Source of the DNA: Moritella yayanosii
Lineage (GTDB): Bacteria; Pseudomonadota; Gammaproteobacteria; Enterobacterales; Moritellaceae
Length of the DNA stretch: 64,000 nucleotides
Assembly: GCF_900465055.1 (NCBI RefSeq)
Contig: NZ_LS483250.1
Coordinates: forward strand, 3,968,001 to 4,032,000
Direction: 5' to 3'
Positions 17,480 through 21,486 of this stretch are shown here, piece after piece. The notes under the pieces are model-generated. The model was not told the DNA's origin. It saw only the letters and a list, made by a program, of their open reading frames with translations, and searched no databases. Each line of letters opens with the position of its first letter. Position 1 is the stretch's first letter. Both the position numbers and the translations under genes were made by a program.

Positions 17480-17965
17480 GTGCAAACATTGACTAACTTG
17501 TGGACCCTACTGAATCGCTTGAACAGATTTAGTTTCAAGGTCAATGCCGACAATGACTCTGTCACTGGTTGGCAAGGTGAAGGGCAGGGCTTAATTAAAC
17601 GCCGTGCCGGTACTAATGACGTTAAATCGGACGAGCCTGGATCCGGCGCGATTATCGAAACTATCGAGCGTGGCGATTATTACGTGACAGCAGATCGTAA
17701 AGTGTCGATGCATAACCAATATTTGTGGGAGTTCGAAGGCGATCATATTGGTTTAACCCATTTACGCTTTGGTTGGGATAAACCGGTATTTTTGTTTGAT
17801 ATTATTGAAAATGGCCAGGGTGAATTAGTCACGCGTCAATCACATCAATGCGCGGCAGATAATTACGATGCCTCATTTGTATTACATATCGATAGTCTGG
17901 TTATGCAGTGGCGCATCCAGGGGCCTAAGAAGCGTGAAGTCTTAGATTATATTTATTGGGTATAA
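17480..17965 (+). CDS. DUF6314 family protein
   Basis: A 161-residue soluble protein that fits the DUF6314 pattern: an early GWQGEGQGLIKRR segment, ETIERGDYYVTADRKVSMHNQYLWEF in the middle, and the LVTRQSHQCAADNYDASF and MQWRIQGPKKREVL blocks near the end, as in the family signature with H.C..D.Y and W.V.GP.K. It looks like a beta-barrel fold; function is unknown. The start is GTG 17480, decided by a strong AAGGAG site six bases upstream. The sulfur operon begins 114 bases downstream on the same strand with its own likely promoter, so a functional link is possible but not shown. Confidence 0.8.
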   Translation: MQTLTNLWTLLNRLNRFSFKVNADNDSVTGWQGEGQGLIKRRAGTNDVKSDEPGSGAIIETIERGDYYVTADRKVSMHNQYLWEFEGDHIGLTHLRFGWDKPVFLFDIIENGQGELVTRQSHQCAADNYDASFVLHIDSLVMQWRIQGPKKREVLDYIYWV

Positions 17966-17983: not shown

Positions 17984-18012
17984 TTGTTCTTCGGTTAATC
18001 GTCAACTATACT
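17984..18012 (+). promoter_or_regulatory. Candidate sigma-70 promoter of the sulfur-carrier operon
   Basis: TTGTTC and TATACT are spaced by 17 bases, giving a good -10 and a partial -35 box. The predicted transcript would begin near 18019, about 60 bases before ATG 18080. Confidence 0.5.
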
Positions 18013-18079
18013 ATTCCTTACTTATAAACACTATTTAGACCCGATAACTTTGACGTTAAATACGTTATTTGAGAGCGCC

Positions 18080-18967
18080 ATGGAAGTGCTAGATTTAATT
18101 GGTAATACGCCGTTAATTAATCTGAGTTTTCTAAGCCCACAGCCTGAGTGTGTCAGTTTGTTTGCCAAAGCCGAGTGGATGAATCCCGGCGGTTCACTTA
18201 AAGACCGCTCGGTGAAACTGATCCTAACGCGCGCTATTGAAGACGGCCTGTTACAGCCAGGTAAAATAATTCTCGATTCCAGTAGCGGTAATGCCGGTAT
18301 TTCTTACAGCATGATTGGCGCCGCACTCGGCTATGCGGTCAACATCGTGATCCCCGACAATGCCAGCAACGAAAGAAAAATGCGTCTGCGAGCCCACGGT
18401 GCGCAATTGATCGAGACCGATGCGTTAGAAGGTTACGATCAAGCCATTCGTCATGTGCATGAATTATATGCCAACTCACCAGATAAATATTTCTTTGCTG
18501 ACCAATACAGTAATCAAGCCAATGTGCTTGCGCATTACCACGGCACGGGCGCGGAGCTCATTGCGCAGGTATCAGGTCCCATTACCCATTTTGTCTGTGG
18601 TGTCGGCACTGGCGGCTCCTTAACGGGCATCGCTAGGCGGCTAAAAGCCAAGTATCCGGCAGTTGTCATCGTGGGTATTCGCCCCGAGCGTTGGCCGGGT
18701 ATCGAAGGCCTGAAACCCTTGGGCGAAAAAGAAGATATTTTACCGAAAATTTTTGACGGCTCTTTGGTTGATCGTTGGCTTGATGTGAGCGCTGATGAAG
18801 CCAAAAGCATGTGTCTTACTATGGCCCGTCGAGGTTATTTTGTCGGGCAATCTTCCGGGGCATACCTTGCGGGCTGCTGTAAATTAATGGCGGAGTTGTC
18901 AGAAGGGGTGGTGACCACCTTAATGTGTGACAGTGGCGAGCGTTATTTCAGTACGGGGTTATGGTAA
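18080..18967 (+). CDS. Cysteine synthase-like PLP enzyme (CysK/CysM family)
   Basis: A 295-residue fold-type II PLP enzyme of the cysteine/cystathionine beta-synthase family. It begins VLDLIGNTPLINL, has the PLP lysine in NPGGSLKDRSVK (Lys41), the substrate-binding loop as SSSGNAGIS in place of the usual TSGNTG, and the phosphate-binding GVGTGGSLTG near residue 170. CysM of this type takes O-phosphoserine or O-acetylserine and a sulfur donor. The gene context (JAMM peptidase and sulfur-carrier activating fusion) suggests protein thiocarboxylate as donor, as for mycobacterial CysM with CysO. ATG 18080 has GAGAG upstream; TTG 18050 is a less likely start. Its stop overlaps the start of the next gene by seven bases, so the two are translationally coupled. 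Confidence 0.88.
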   Translation: MEVLDLIGNTPLINLSFLSPQPECVSLFAKAEWMNPGGSLKDRSVKLILTRAIEDGLLQPGKIILDSSSGNAGISYSMIGAALGYAVNIVIPDNASNERKMRLRAHGAQLIETDALEGYDQAIRHVHELYANSPDKYFFADQYSNQANVLAHYHGTGAELIAQVSGPITHFVCGVGTGGSLTGIARRLKAKYPAVVIVGIRPERWPGIEGLKPLGEKEDILPKIFDGSLVDRWLDVSADEAKSMCLTMARRGYFVGQSSGAYLAGCCKLMAELSEGVVTTLMCDSGERYFSTGLW

Positions 18968-19395
18968 TCATGACGATTGAAATTAATGCCGCGATCAAGT
19001 CAGCGATGCTAGATCAGGCTGAGTCTTGTTTTCCCAATGAGAGTTGTGGCTTTATTATTGGTTCATACGCAGCTGGTGTGGCTAAGGGCGATTATTATAT
19101 TCCCTGTGACAATGATCATGGGCACAATCAACAGCGGCGTTTTCTTATTGATCCCATGGCCTATCAATTAGCCGAAGATACAGCCGATGCCAATGGGCAA
19201 AGCATCATTAGTATTGTCCATTCTCACCCTGATCATCCCGACCAGCCTTCTGAATTTGATCGGCTGCATGCCTGGCCAGGGCTCAGTTACATCATTATTG
19301 CTGTGTTTGCGGGTCGAGTGCGCAGTTATCGGTCGTGGCAATTGAGCGATGATCGCAGTGAATTCCATCAGGAAGTTATTAATCTGGGAGATTAA
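18961..19395 (+). CDS. JAMM/MPN+ metallopeptidase, Mec+-like
   Basis: A 144-residue single-domain JAB1/MPN protein with the full zinc site: Glu27 in NESCGFIIG, then HSHPDHPDQPSEFD giving His87, His89, Ser97 and Asp100. Such bacterial enzymes (Mec+ of Mycobacterium, QbsD of Pseudomonas, HcyD of Wolinella) cleave next to the diglycine of ubiquitin-like sulfur carriers, either to free a cysteine adduct or to expose the diglycine. The gene starts inside the last codons of the cysteine-synthase-like gene (ATG 18961; 18970 is possible) and stops one base before the carrier-E1 fusion, so it is in the middle of a tight operon. The natural target is inferred, most likely the fusion protein encoded next. 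Confidence 0.9.
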   Translation: MVIMTIEINAAIKSAMLDQAESCFPNESCGFIIGSYAAGVAKGDYYIPCDNDHGHNQQRRFLIDPMAYQLAEDTADANGQSIISIVHSHPDHPDQPSEFDRLHAWPGLSYIIIAVFAGRVRSYRSWQLSDDRSEFHQEVINLGD

Positions 19396-19396
19396 T

Positions 19397-20815
19397 ATGA
19401 TGACAGTGACGCTAAAAATCCCATCCCCATTGCGGCGTTTTACCGATAATAGCCGTGCCGTAGAGGTTGAAGCTGACAGTGTTGCAACGGCACTTGAACA
19501 GCTATTTATTCTGTATCCAGATCTGAAATTACAAGTCATGGATGACAGCGGGCAGCTGCGTAATTTCGTTAATTTATTTCACGACAAGGTCGATATTCGC
19601 CAGCAGCAAGGACTAAATACCCGTTTACACCAAGGCAGTGAACTGCGTATCGTGCCAGCCATAGCGGGTGGCAGTGACAGCCGATTGTCGGCGCTGGAGT
19701 TGAGTCGTTATAGCCGCCATATCATGTTGCCCGAAATGGGCATTGAAGGGCAAGAGTTGCTAAAATCCGCCAGTATTTTAATTATTGGCGCGGGGGGGTT
19801 AGGTTGCCCGTTGGGTTTGTATCTTGCTGCGGCGGGAGTTGGTCATTTAGGTATCGTGGATAATGACGTTGTCGAAGAATCTAATTTGCAACGGCAAGTA
19901 CTGTATACCATCGATGATATCGGCAAGCCGAAAGTAGATTGTGCCGCGGCGCGTCTGCGTCAGCTTAATCCTTATATTAAAATCAGTTGTTATGCCGAGC
20001 TACTGACCAGTGCTAATGCCATGCAGTTGATTGAACCTTATGATCTGGTGATTGATGGTACCGATAATTTTCCCACCCGTTATCTGGTGAATGATGCTTG
20101 TGTATTGCTGAATAAACCGAATATTTACGGCAGTATTTTTCGCTTCGACGGTCAGGCAACGGTGTTTAATTATCAACAAGGGCCCTGTTATCGTTGTCTT
20201 TATCCATCCCCGCCGCCGCCCGGGTTAGTGCCTTCTTGTGCCGAAGGTGGTGTGCTTGGGGTATTACCGGCGATTATCGCTTCAATTCAGGCGACCGAAG
20301 CGATTAAAATGATCACCAACATCGGTGATAGCTTATCGGGTAAGTTGCTGCTGTATGATGCGCTAAAAATGGAATTTGAATATCTACAGATTGAAAAAAA
20401 TCCGGATTGCCCGTTATGTGGTCAGCACCCGTCTATTCATGCATTGATTGATTATCAGCAATTTTGTGGAATCACCACCAGTACTGAACCACGCAGTTAT
20501 CAGGACATCAGCCCGCAGGAACTAAAGCAGAAGTTGGATGCTAACGACCCCTTAGTGTTAATCGATGTGAGAGAACCTTATGAGCGTGAGATTTGTAAGA
20601 TAATGCCGAGTCAGCATATTCCCATGGCACAGATTGATGCACATATGGCGGAGTTCAATACTGAACAAGTGCTAGTGGTTCATTGCAAGCTAGGTGGGCG
20701 CTCTGCGACAGTATGTCAGCAGTTTAGTACTCAGGGTTATAAGCATGTGTTTAATCTGACAGGGGGTATTTTAGCCTGGGCGGATGCGGTCGATGATAAG
20801 TTGATCCGTTATTGA
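19397..20815 (+). CDS. Ubiquitin-like sulfur carrier / E1-like adenylyltransferase / rhodanese fusion
   Basis: A 472-residue three-domain protein. Residues 1-92 are a MoaD/ThiS/CysO-like beta-grasp domain ending VPAIAGG, with Gly91-Gly92 at the place where a free carrier would end. Residues about 100-345 are a ThiF/MoeB-type E1 domain with GAGGLG (131-136), SNLQRQ (162-167), TDNFPTR, a likely catalytic Cys281 in SCAEGGVLG and a zinc site CYRC (264-267) plus CPLC (338-341). Residues about 370-472 are a rhodanese domain with active Cys430 in HCKLGGRS. MoeZ/MOCS3 proteins have the last two domains; the carrier is normally separate. The start ATG 19397 follows GGGAG at eight bases. The E1 should adenylate the diglycine and the rhodanese should supply persulfide sulfur. 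Confidence 0.92.
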   Translation: MMTVTLKIPSPLRRFTDNSRAVEVEADSVATALEQLFILYPDLKLQVMDDSGQLRNFVNLFHDKVDIRQQQGLNTRLHQGSELRIVPAIAGGSDSRLSALELSRYSRHIMLPEMGIEGQELLKSASILIIGAGGLGCPLGLYLAAAGVGHLGIVDNDVVEESNLQRQVLYTIDDIGKPKVDCAAARLRQLNPYIKISCYAELLTSANAMQLIEPYDLVIDGTDNFPTRYLVNDACVLLNKPNIYGSIFRFDGQATVFNYQQGPCYRCLYPSPPPPGLVPSCAEGGVLGVLPAIIASIQATEAIKMITNIGDSLSGKLLLYDALKMEFEYLQIEKNPDCPLCGQHPSIHALIDYQQFCGITTSTEPRSYQDISPQELKQKLDANDPLVLIDVREPYEREICKIMPSQHIPMAQIDAHMAEFNTEQVLVVHCKLGGRSATVCQQFSTQGYKHVFNLTGGILAWADAVDDKLIRY

Positions 20816-20889: not shown

Positions 20890-21429
20890 TTAAGCCGTGA
20901 TCACCTTGTTATCGACCGTGAAGTGATATTCAGCATTCAAAATAGTACACAGTCCGCTGAGTTCCGATTTTAAAACAGCCAAATCACAATCAGACGTCGT
21001 ATTTAGCGTAAAATGTGCTTTAAGTATATCTGAGTTGTCTGCCGCGGTTAATATCTCTGAGCGTAGTCCGGCTAAATTAAGATTATTATTGGTAAAGAAT
21101 AACGTAAATTTCTCGATAATGCCGGTTGCATCAGGGATCGTTACTTCAACTTCAATGGTATGATCATAGCTAATTGGTTCGTGACGTTCGGTGCGCTTCA
21201 TCATGGTAATTAAGTCGAGCTCTTGGCTCTTTATTGGCAAGCTAGATTCAAGTTGGATAATGGCGTTCCATTCACCAGACAATAGCATGATCAGGGTGAA
21301 CTCATTTCCAAAAATAGCCAGTCTGCTATCGACGATATTACAGCCGCAATTACTGACGTGGCCAATCAGTTTGTGGACGATACCTGGACTATTGCTGCCA
21401 AGGGCGGTGATAACTAAATTCTGCGTCAT
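20890..21429 (-). CDS. gcvR: Glycine cleavage system transcriptional repressor GcvR
   Basis: A 179-residue protein made of two ACT domains: the first starts LVITALGSNSPGIVHKLIGH, the second after HTIEVEVTIPDATGIIEKFT. In E. coli GcvR binds glycine and the activator GcvA to repress the gcvTHP genes. It lies divergent from dapA, the same arrangement as in E. coli and vibrios. I chose ATG 21429; the frame is open to TTG 21459 but AAGGA and TGGA lie just before 21429. Identity rests on double ACT layout, length and context. Confidence 0.88.
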   Translation of the reverse strand: MTQNLVITALGSNSPGIVHKLIGHVSNCGCNIVDSRLAIFGNEFTLIMLLSGEWNAIIQLESSLPIKSQELDLITMMKRTERHEPISYDHTIEVEVTIPDATGIIEKFTLFFTNNNLNLAGLRSEILTAADNSDILKAHFTLNTTSDCDLAVLKSELSGLCTILNAEYHFTVDNKVITA

Positions 21430-21486
21430 TTTGTTCCAGGTCCTTTTATTCTGAGTCAATTACAGTAAGTAAACAGTAGAGCATGA

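Follow-up and report, generated by a model that had tools for sequence, protein, structure and literature searches.

How can a sulfur carrier protein be activated when the diglycine to be charged lies inside a longer polypeptide? This question is raised by three adjoining genes of Moritella yayanosii, located at 18080-20815 on the plus strand of the 64,000-nucleotide stretch of contig NZ_LS483250.1 that we analysed (positions 3,968,001 to 4,032,000; hereafter the window). Read head to tail, their open reading frames (ORFs) encode a CysM-like pyridoxal phosphate (PLP) enzyme, a JAMM peptidase, and a fusion of a ubiquitin-like carrier, an E1 activating enzyme and a rhodanese. We suggest, with a probability of about two in three, that this trio is an accessory protein-thiocarboxylate pathway for a sulfur-containing amino acid, most likely cysteine, and that its carrier follows a pro-carrier design.

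The fusion gene (19397..20815) encodes 472 amino acids, with the carrier at residues 1-92, the E1 at about 97-345 and the rhodanese at about 366-472. All three domains exceeded the Pfam gathering scores by which domain assignments were judged (ThiS 30.8 bits against a cut-off of 22.5, ThiF 291.6 against 28.1, rhodanese 56.4 against 22.2), which bears out the combination of ubiquitin-like, ThiF/MoeB-like and rhodanese domains reported in a preliminary description of this DNA. The MoaD/ThiS-like carrier domain (19397..19672; PF02597) ends in ...IVPAIAGG, and past Gly91-Gly92 the chain continues as SDSRLSALELSRY into the E1. A chance or mis-called fusion was rejected, as three other Moritella share the fused frame at 92-96% identity and another genus does so at 66-69%.

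E1 enzymes of this family adenylate a free C-terminal glycine, as established for MoeB with MoaD and for ThiF with ThiS. Because Gly91-Gly92, followed by Ser93 (19667..19675), is internal to the fusion, the carrier could not be adenylated until it is cut. The cut after Gly92 would thus have to come first, which makes the adjacent JAMM peptidase the obvious candidate for it. In an AlphaFold2 model of the fusion, built on a shallow alignment of 18, the carrier, E1 and rhodanese are folded (mean predicted local distance difference test score, pLDDT, of 83), and residues 89-97, including the diglycine, score below 50 between the confidently folded domains. Such a segment fits an exposed linker that could be cut.

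The active-site motifs of the trio are intact. In the fusion, the catalytic-type cysteine of the E1 (C281 in VPSCAEGG; 20237..20239) is invariant in two alignments of relatives, and the active-site-type cysteine of the rhodanese (C430 in HCKLGGRS; 20684..20686) is conserved in the six fused relatives that have a full rhodanese domain. The JAMM/Prok-JAB metallopeptidase (18961..19395, 144 amino acids, with an alternative in-frame ATG at 18970) matched PF14464 with 77.7 bits (cut-off 25), and its closest structure is 2kcq. The zinc ligands previously listed for it, Glu27, His87-Ser88-His89-Pro90 (HSHP 87-90), Ser97 and Asp100, are all present, and E27, H87, H89, S97 and D100 are invariant in an alignment of 15 relatives. 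The fold-type-II PLP enzyme (18080..18967, 295 amino acids) matched the PALP domain (PF00291) with 230.9 bits (cut-off 35). Its PLP lysine lies within GGSLKD as claimed (K41, codon at 18200), and the nearest solved structures are of E. coli-type CysM (2v03/2bhs).

We propose that the ubiquitin-like carrier is synthesised at the N-terminus of the E1-rhodanese that serves it, and that the JAMM peptidase would then cut after Gly92, yielding a carrier that ends in diglycine and a separate E1-rhodanese. By homology to CysO-CysM-Mec+-MoeZ, the E1 would adenylate the diglycine carboxylate, and the rhodanese, with sulfane sulfur from a donor such as thiosulfate or a persulfide loaded on C430, would turn it into a thiocarboxylate. 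The CysM-like enzyme, holding an aminoacrylate derived from O-acetyl- or O-phosphoserine, would take the sulfur of the carrier to form a carrier-cysteine adduct. Hydrolysis of this adduct by the JAMM peptidase would release cysteine and recycle the carrier. Placing the whole route within three genes, as was done initially, is overstated, since the sulfur donor and the supply of acetyl- or phosphoserine are encoded elsewhere. The sulfide independence also ascribed to the route at first was likewise not upheld as more than a prediction. Cysteine is favoured over homocysteine as the predicted product, given the fold-type-II, CysM-like nature of the acceptor enzyme. The O-acetylhomoserine sulfhydrylase-type acceptor of a homocysteine route (MetY) is not linked to the trio, no MetY or sulfate-assimilation neighbours were found in the window, and MetY linkage was seen in only two genomes, G050 and G271.

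A search for the JAMM gene in 296 genomes of the order recovered the three genes in the same layout from a second gammaproteobacterial genus, as well as a fused carrier-E1-rhodanese with JAMM and MetY-type genes in two genomes of another family. A carrier-domain-seeded scan of 84,980 species genomes revealed fused forms in Neomarinimicrobiota, Acidobacteria, Chloroflexota, Rubrobacter, Erythrobacter and Planctomycetota, and four further fused loci (L148-L151) came from a class-wide JAMM survey. Hits of the carrier-seeded scan that lacked neighbouring E1 or JAMM genes, many of them from Chloroflexota, were not counted as this system. The fused relatives show three domain orders: carrier-E1-rhodanese, carrier-E1 and carrier-rhodanese-E1. 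Across the 27 distinct fused genomes, which belong to several phyla, the junction reads AGG in every case (27/27), followed by S, A, T or V, and the linker past it varies in length and sequence. This invariance amid variable linkers, together with the linkage of the JAMM gene, argues strongly for cleavage at the diglycine, with Gly92|Ser93 as the predicted site in Moritella.

To avoid circularity, linkage was counted only among loci from the carrier-seeded scan and not among JAMM-seeded ones. The JAMM gene was on the same contig in all of these fused loci (19/19); it lay within the flank in 14, and a genome search located it 2.2-5.5 kb from the fusion in the other five, on contigs of identical length. 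Among unfused carrier loci with a nearby E1-like gene or domain, 4/30 had a linked JAMM gene (Fisher p=5e-10 for 19/19 vs 4/30, not corrected for phylogeny), and in several of the remaining unfused genomes it was elsewhere, e.g. 0.8 and 1.3 Mb off. In all 27 fused genomes, a JAMM gene and the fusion share a contig and lie no more than about 5.5 kb apart. A maximum-likelihood tree of the E1 contained at least six changes between the fused and unfused states, at least two of which are forced by strongly supported branches; the association of JAMM and fusion is therefore seen in more than one lineage. On this tree, the window clade groups with two unfused Chloroflexota loci (L072 and L107) on a weakly supported branch. 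The linkage supports a role of the JAMM peptidase as the putative carrier maturase, and analogy to Mec+ supports its also being a candidate releaser of the product. More tentatively, and with slightly less than an even chance, sulfur carriers may have been fused repeatedly to their own E1 as pro-proteins, with the JAMM peptidase of the operon both maturing the carrier and releasing the amino acid. If so, the carrier and E1 would be made in 1:1 amounts, and carrier maturation would be a possible control point.

The host genome (4.43 Mb, one contig), which was searched for sulfur genes family by family, has CysI, CysE and CysK away from the trio locus, so that the trio was rejected as the sole cysteine route. 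The host also has two ThiS/MoaD-like genes elsewhere, a ThiS beside a ThiF-type E1 and one MoaD, as well as a MoeB over its cut-off (402.3 of 376.55) and a TcdA-like E1 away from the locus. The fusion does not replace these separate ThiS/ThiF and MoaD/MoeB pairs, and because of them it is not needed for thiamin or molybdenum cofactor. The trio was found in 4/11 Moritella genomes, and the other 7/11 lack it. Considering this distribution and the host genes above, the trio is accessory and additional rather than the principal route to cysteine. The closest named matches are from Moritella sp. PE36, DT_65 and JT01.

Several points weigh against a thiocarboxylate route to cysteine. With CysI, CysE and CysK present, the host has no obvious need of a second cysteine route. 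The PLP enzyme scored under every NCBIfam cysteine synthase cut-off (295.6 vs 394.2 bits for cysM/cysteine synthase B, TIGR01138), so its product is uncertain. Loading of the rhodanese by a cysteine desulfurase would yield no net cysteine; for this reason, thiosulfate or a persulfide is the more likely donor. In the linkage count, related genomes are not independent, many distant loci are from metagenome-assembled genomes (MAGs), and some of the unfused contigs are short. Lastly, the E1 keeps both CXXC motifs (CYRC at 264 and CPLC at 338), unlike the MoeZR that serves CysO in Mycobacterium: MoeZR is mostly without these motifs, and CysO is sulfurated by MoeZR only and not by MoeBR (PMC3227635). 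The direct match to MoeZ that had been drawn earlier was thus not upheld. Filing the E1 as either MoeZ or MoeB was also rejected, as it scored under both NCBIfam cut-offs (457.8 of 647 and 486.4 of 633).

Rather than being rarely found together in relatives, the three genes keep their order in four Moritella, in the second gammaproteobacterial genus, and in one Neomarinimicrobiota and one Acidobacteria MAG. The order PLP-JAMM-carrier-E1/rhodanese is also kept in two Chloroflexota loci with an unfused carrier (L072 and L107), whose carriers have one (F) and 26 amino acids past the diglycine and would also need trimming. This constancy, from Moritella to Neomarinimicrobiota, Acidobacteria and unfused Chloroflexota, speaks against the alternative that survives best, which we nevertheless consider unlikely: the carrier-E1-rhodanese and JAMM peptidase would be a thiolation module with a different purpose (another thio-metabolite, or thiolation of the tRNA type), and the CysM-like protein would be an ordinary sulfide/thiosulfate synthase that shares the operon by coincidence, perhaps replenishing cysteine. 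Consistent with such a module, the PLP enzyme resembles E. coli CysM, a type that uses small sulfur donors; the flanks of the four gammaproteobacterial loci L148-L151 and of an Erythrobacter locus (L056) contain the module without a PLP gene; and in G050 and G271 it occurs with MetY-type enzymes. In these two genomes, which belong to another family, an O-acetylhomoserine sulfhydrylase-like (MetY-type) gene replaces the CysM-like gene next to the JAMM and fused carrier-E1-rhodanese genes (L012 and L016), and the loci are likely a homocysteine version. The swap between CysM-like and MetY-like partners fits a sulfur-acceptor enzyme that sets the product.

Less probable again is that the N-terminal domain is never freed and acts as a structural or regulatory part of the E1, whose substrate would be a different carrier. 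Although ThiF proteins with a fused ubiquitin-like domain beside a separate ThiS may have another role (PMC1779556), and separate carriers stand beside the fused one in five Chloroflexota loci (L034, L047, L057, L081 and L084), an uncut domain is hard to square with an AGG that is kept throughout the fused proteins despite linker drift, with a JAMM gene that is always linked, and with a host in which the only other ThiS/MoaD-like genes found are the ThiS beside ThiF and the single MoaD. It is very improbable that the freed carrier is a protein modifier (Urm1/SAMP-like conjugation), with JAMM deconjugating it and cysteine synthesis secondary, since the operon opens with a PLP amino-acid enzyme, contains a rhodanese as a mark of sulfur transfer and has neither an E2 nor a target gene linked to it, even if archaeal SAMP1/HvJAMM1 is a reversible modification system (PMC4443979) and both proteins gave sub-cut-off NCBIfam matches of this kind (JAMM-desampylase 53.8 of 130, carrier-SAMP1 51.9 of 60).

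Other JAMM and carrier loci were met in the surveys. JAMM was present in 87/369 and 152/398 genomes of the class and phylum surveys, counts that do not measure this operon, as most of these genes had no carrier/E1 partner in the short flanks. Three JAMM matches from one genus (L013, L014 and L015) were left out as phage tail JAB proteins; in these, the JAB is combined with an additional domain and a tail-assembly I-like protein comes next, which is the other known JAB-ubiquitin-like pairing. One genome with the full trio (G079) also has a second, lone JAMM gene (L017), 44-48% identical to that of the window, with no adjoining carrier/E1. Five Chloroflexota clusters (L047, L081, L084, L106 and L066) contain two carriers and two CysM-like genes, some of them with a fused carrier-E1 as well, and possibly represent parallel routes in one cluster. 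The E1 of L090, on a contig titled as a Klebsiella pneumoniae MAG, groups with a Deltaproteobacteria contig (L093) with support 100/100, and L090 is probably a mislabelled bin.

The three genes were described as coupled, and their layout agrees with this: all are on the plus strand, the PLP and JAMM genes share 7 nt (18961-18967), and the fusion ATG at 19397 begins 1 nt past the JAMM stop codon (19393-19395). Given this spacing, a single transcript for all three is likely. The ORF of the PLP gene reaches upstream to a TTG at 18050, but the most likely start is the ATG at 18080, because relatives begin there, JT01 has an interrupted frame upstream, and one Moritella genome without the operon (G001) keeps the same leader; the TTG was rejected on the latter two grounds. 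A weak promoter-like element, read directly on the plus strand at 17984-18012, consists of TTGTTC (17984-17989), a 17-nt spacer and TATACT (18007-18012). It agrees with the consensus at 8/12 positions, and a consensus promoter scan, in which the number of sites was no higher than in shuffled sequence, did not pick it up. Its -10 hexamer, TATACT, is kept in 4/4 trio-carrying Moritella. An own promoter of the operon, as first assumed, is therefore plausible, with the conserved -10 hexamer in its favour and the weak match and the scan against it.

The trio is flanked upstream by a DUF6314 gene (17480-17965) and downstream by gcvR (20890-21459, minus strand). The interval between these two genes varies in Moritella: it contains the trio in four genomes and is empty in G118, where it spans 80 bp. 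Other Moritella have different genes after DUF6314, e.g. one for a small protein of about 208 amino acids or one beginning MKKVNWKRVNRK. In G001, the trio is missing, yet its 5' leader is kept together with a stretch that resembles the 3' flank of the trio. The interval resembles an accessory slot in which genes are gained and lost. In Moritella DT_65 (L133), an insert of about 260 bp lies between DUF6314 and the PLP gene; its ends are inverted copies (ACCCAAGCnACTTCAAGATGC), resembling a miniature inverted-repeat transposable element (MITE).

The role of JAMM peptidases in sulfur-transfer operons, be it carrier maturation, product release or both, has mostly been debated on the basis of unfused systems. 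A carrier-E1-rhodanese beside a JAMM gene makes maturation directly testable, since without a cut there is no free diglycine. The set is also compact and could be rebuilt in E. coli, where one could ask whether sulfur from thiosulfate or a persulfide reaches cysteine while bypassing free sulfide. The proposed maturation parallels the processing of eukaryotic ubiquitin-like precursors.

Among known systems, the protein-thiocarboxylate methionine route of Wolinella succinogenes, reportedly described by Krishnamoorthy and Begley in 2011 (cited in PMC5764234), and the siderophore sulfur transfer of QbsCDE/PdtFGH share with the trio a JAMM peptidase, a carrier, an E1 and an acceptor enzyme. The JAMM peptidase of these systems trims residues after the diglycine. 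They differ from the Moritella trio in acceptor chemistry, and no AMP-ligase or CaiB-like genes (QbsCDE/PdtFGH, type 4a) were present among the flanking genes examined. Uba4/MOCS3 has an E1 with a C-terminal rhodanese like that of the fusion, which matched structure 6yub of this type, but unlike the trio it has no N-terminal carrier and no JAMM or PLP partner.

The type 4c operon of Iyer, Burroughs and Aravind 2006 comprises ThiS/MoaD, E1-rhodanese, JAB and cysteine synthase, for which sulfur transfer coupled to cysteine was proposed, along with the possibility that JAB frees fused carriers (PMC1779556). The general reading of our locus is hence already published and not new, and the parallel to CysM-Mec+-CysO/MoeZ, QbsCDE and Hcy in the preliminary description is sound and agrees with this prediction. 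Both the type 4c operon and the Moritella trio hold all four activities in one operon. In type 4c, however, the carrier is a separate gene, whereas in Moritella it forms the N-terminus of the E1-rhodanese, so that there are three genes and the diglycine is internal. As the carrier is fused to the E1 in one 472-amino-acid ORF, the trio is, by its gene structure, a variant of type 4c and not a plain member. The published type 4c species list is without Moritella (PMC1779556). No report or experiment on a carrier-E1-rhodanese fusion with JAMM and CysM was found in the searchable literature, outside of which key subscription papers lie.

CysO-CysM-Mec+ of Mycobacterium tuberculosis, with MoeZR (type 4d), has a fold-type-II PLP synthase, a JAMM peptidase, a MoaD-like diglycine carrier and an E1 with a C-terminal rhodanese, all as in the trio, and a JAMM with a full zinc motif likewise stands beside a CysM-like gene in Moritella. 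In M. tuberculosis, MoeZR converts CysO to the thiocarboxylate, CysM joins serine to it and Mec+ then frees cysteine; MoeBR and MoeZR both act as thiosulfate sulfurtransferases (PMC3227635). The free-standing CysO has a diglycine end from the outset (PMC3227635), whereas in Moritella the diglycine is at residues 91-92 of 472. The CysO operon also has ClpS; the flanks of the trio are without ClpS or helical-protein neighbours and have DUF6314 and gcvR instead.

MoaX of M. tuberculosis, a fused MoaD-MoaE, is cut at Gly82|Ser83 by an unidentified protease and is inactive otherwise (PMC4326299). Like the Moritella fusion, MoaX has an N-terminal carrier, and its cut after Gly-Gly and before Ser corresponds to the predicted Gly92|Ser93 site. 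The two differ in the partner of the carrier, which is MoaE in MoaX and the E1 in Moritella, where a JAMM gene adjoins the fusion.

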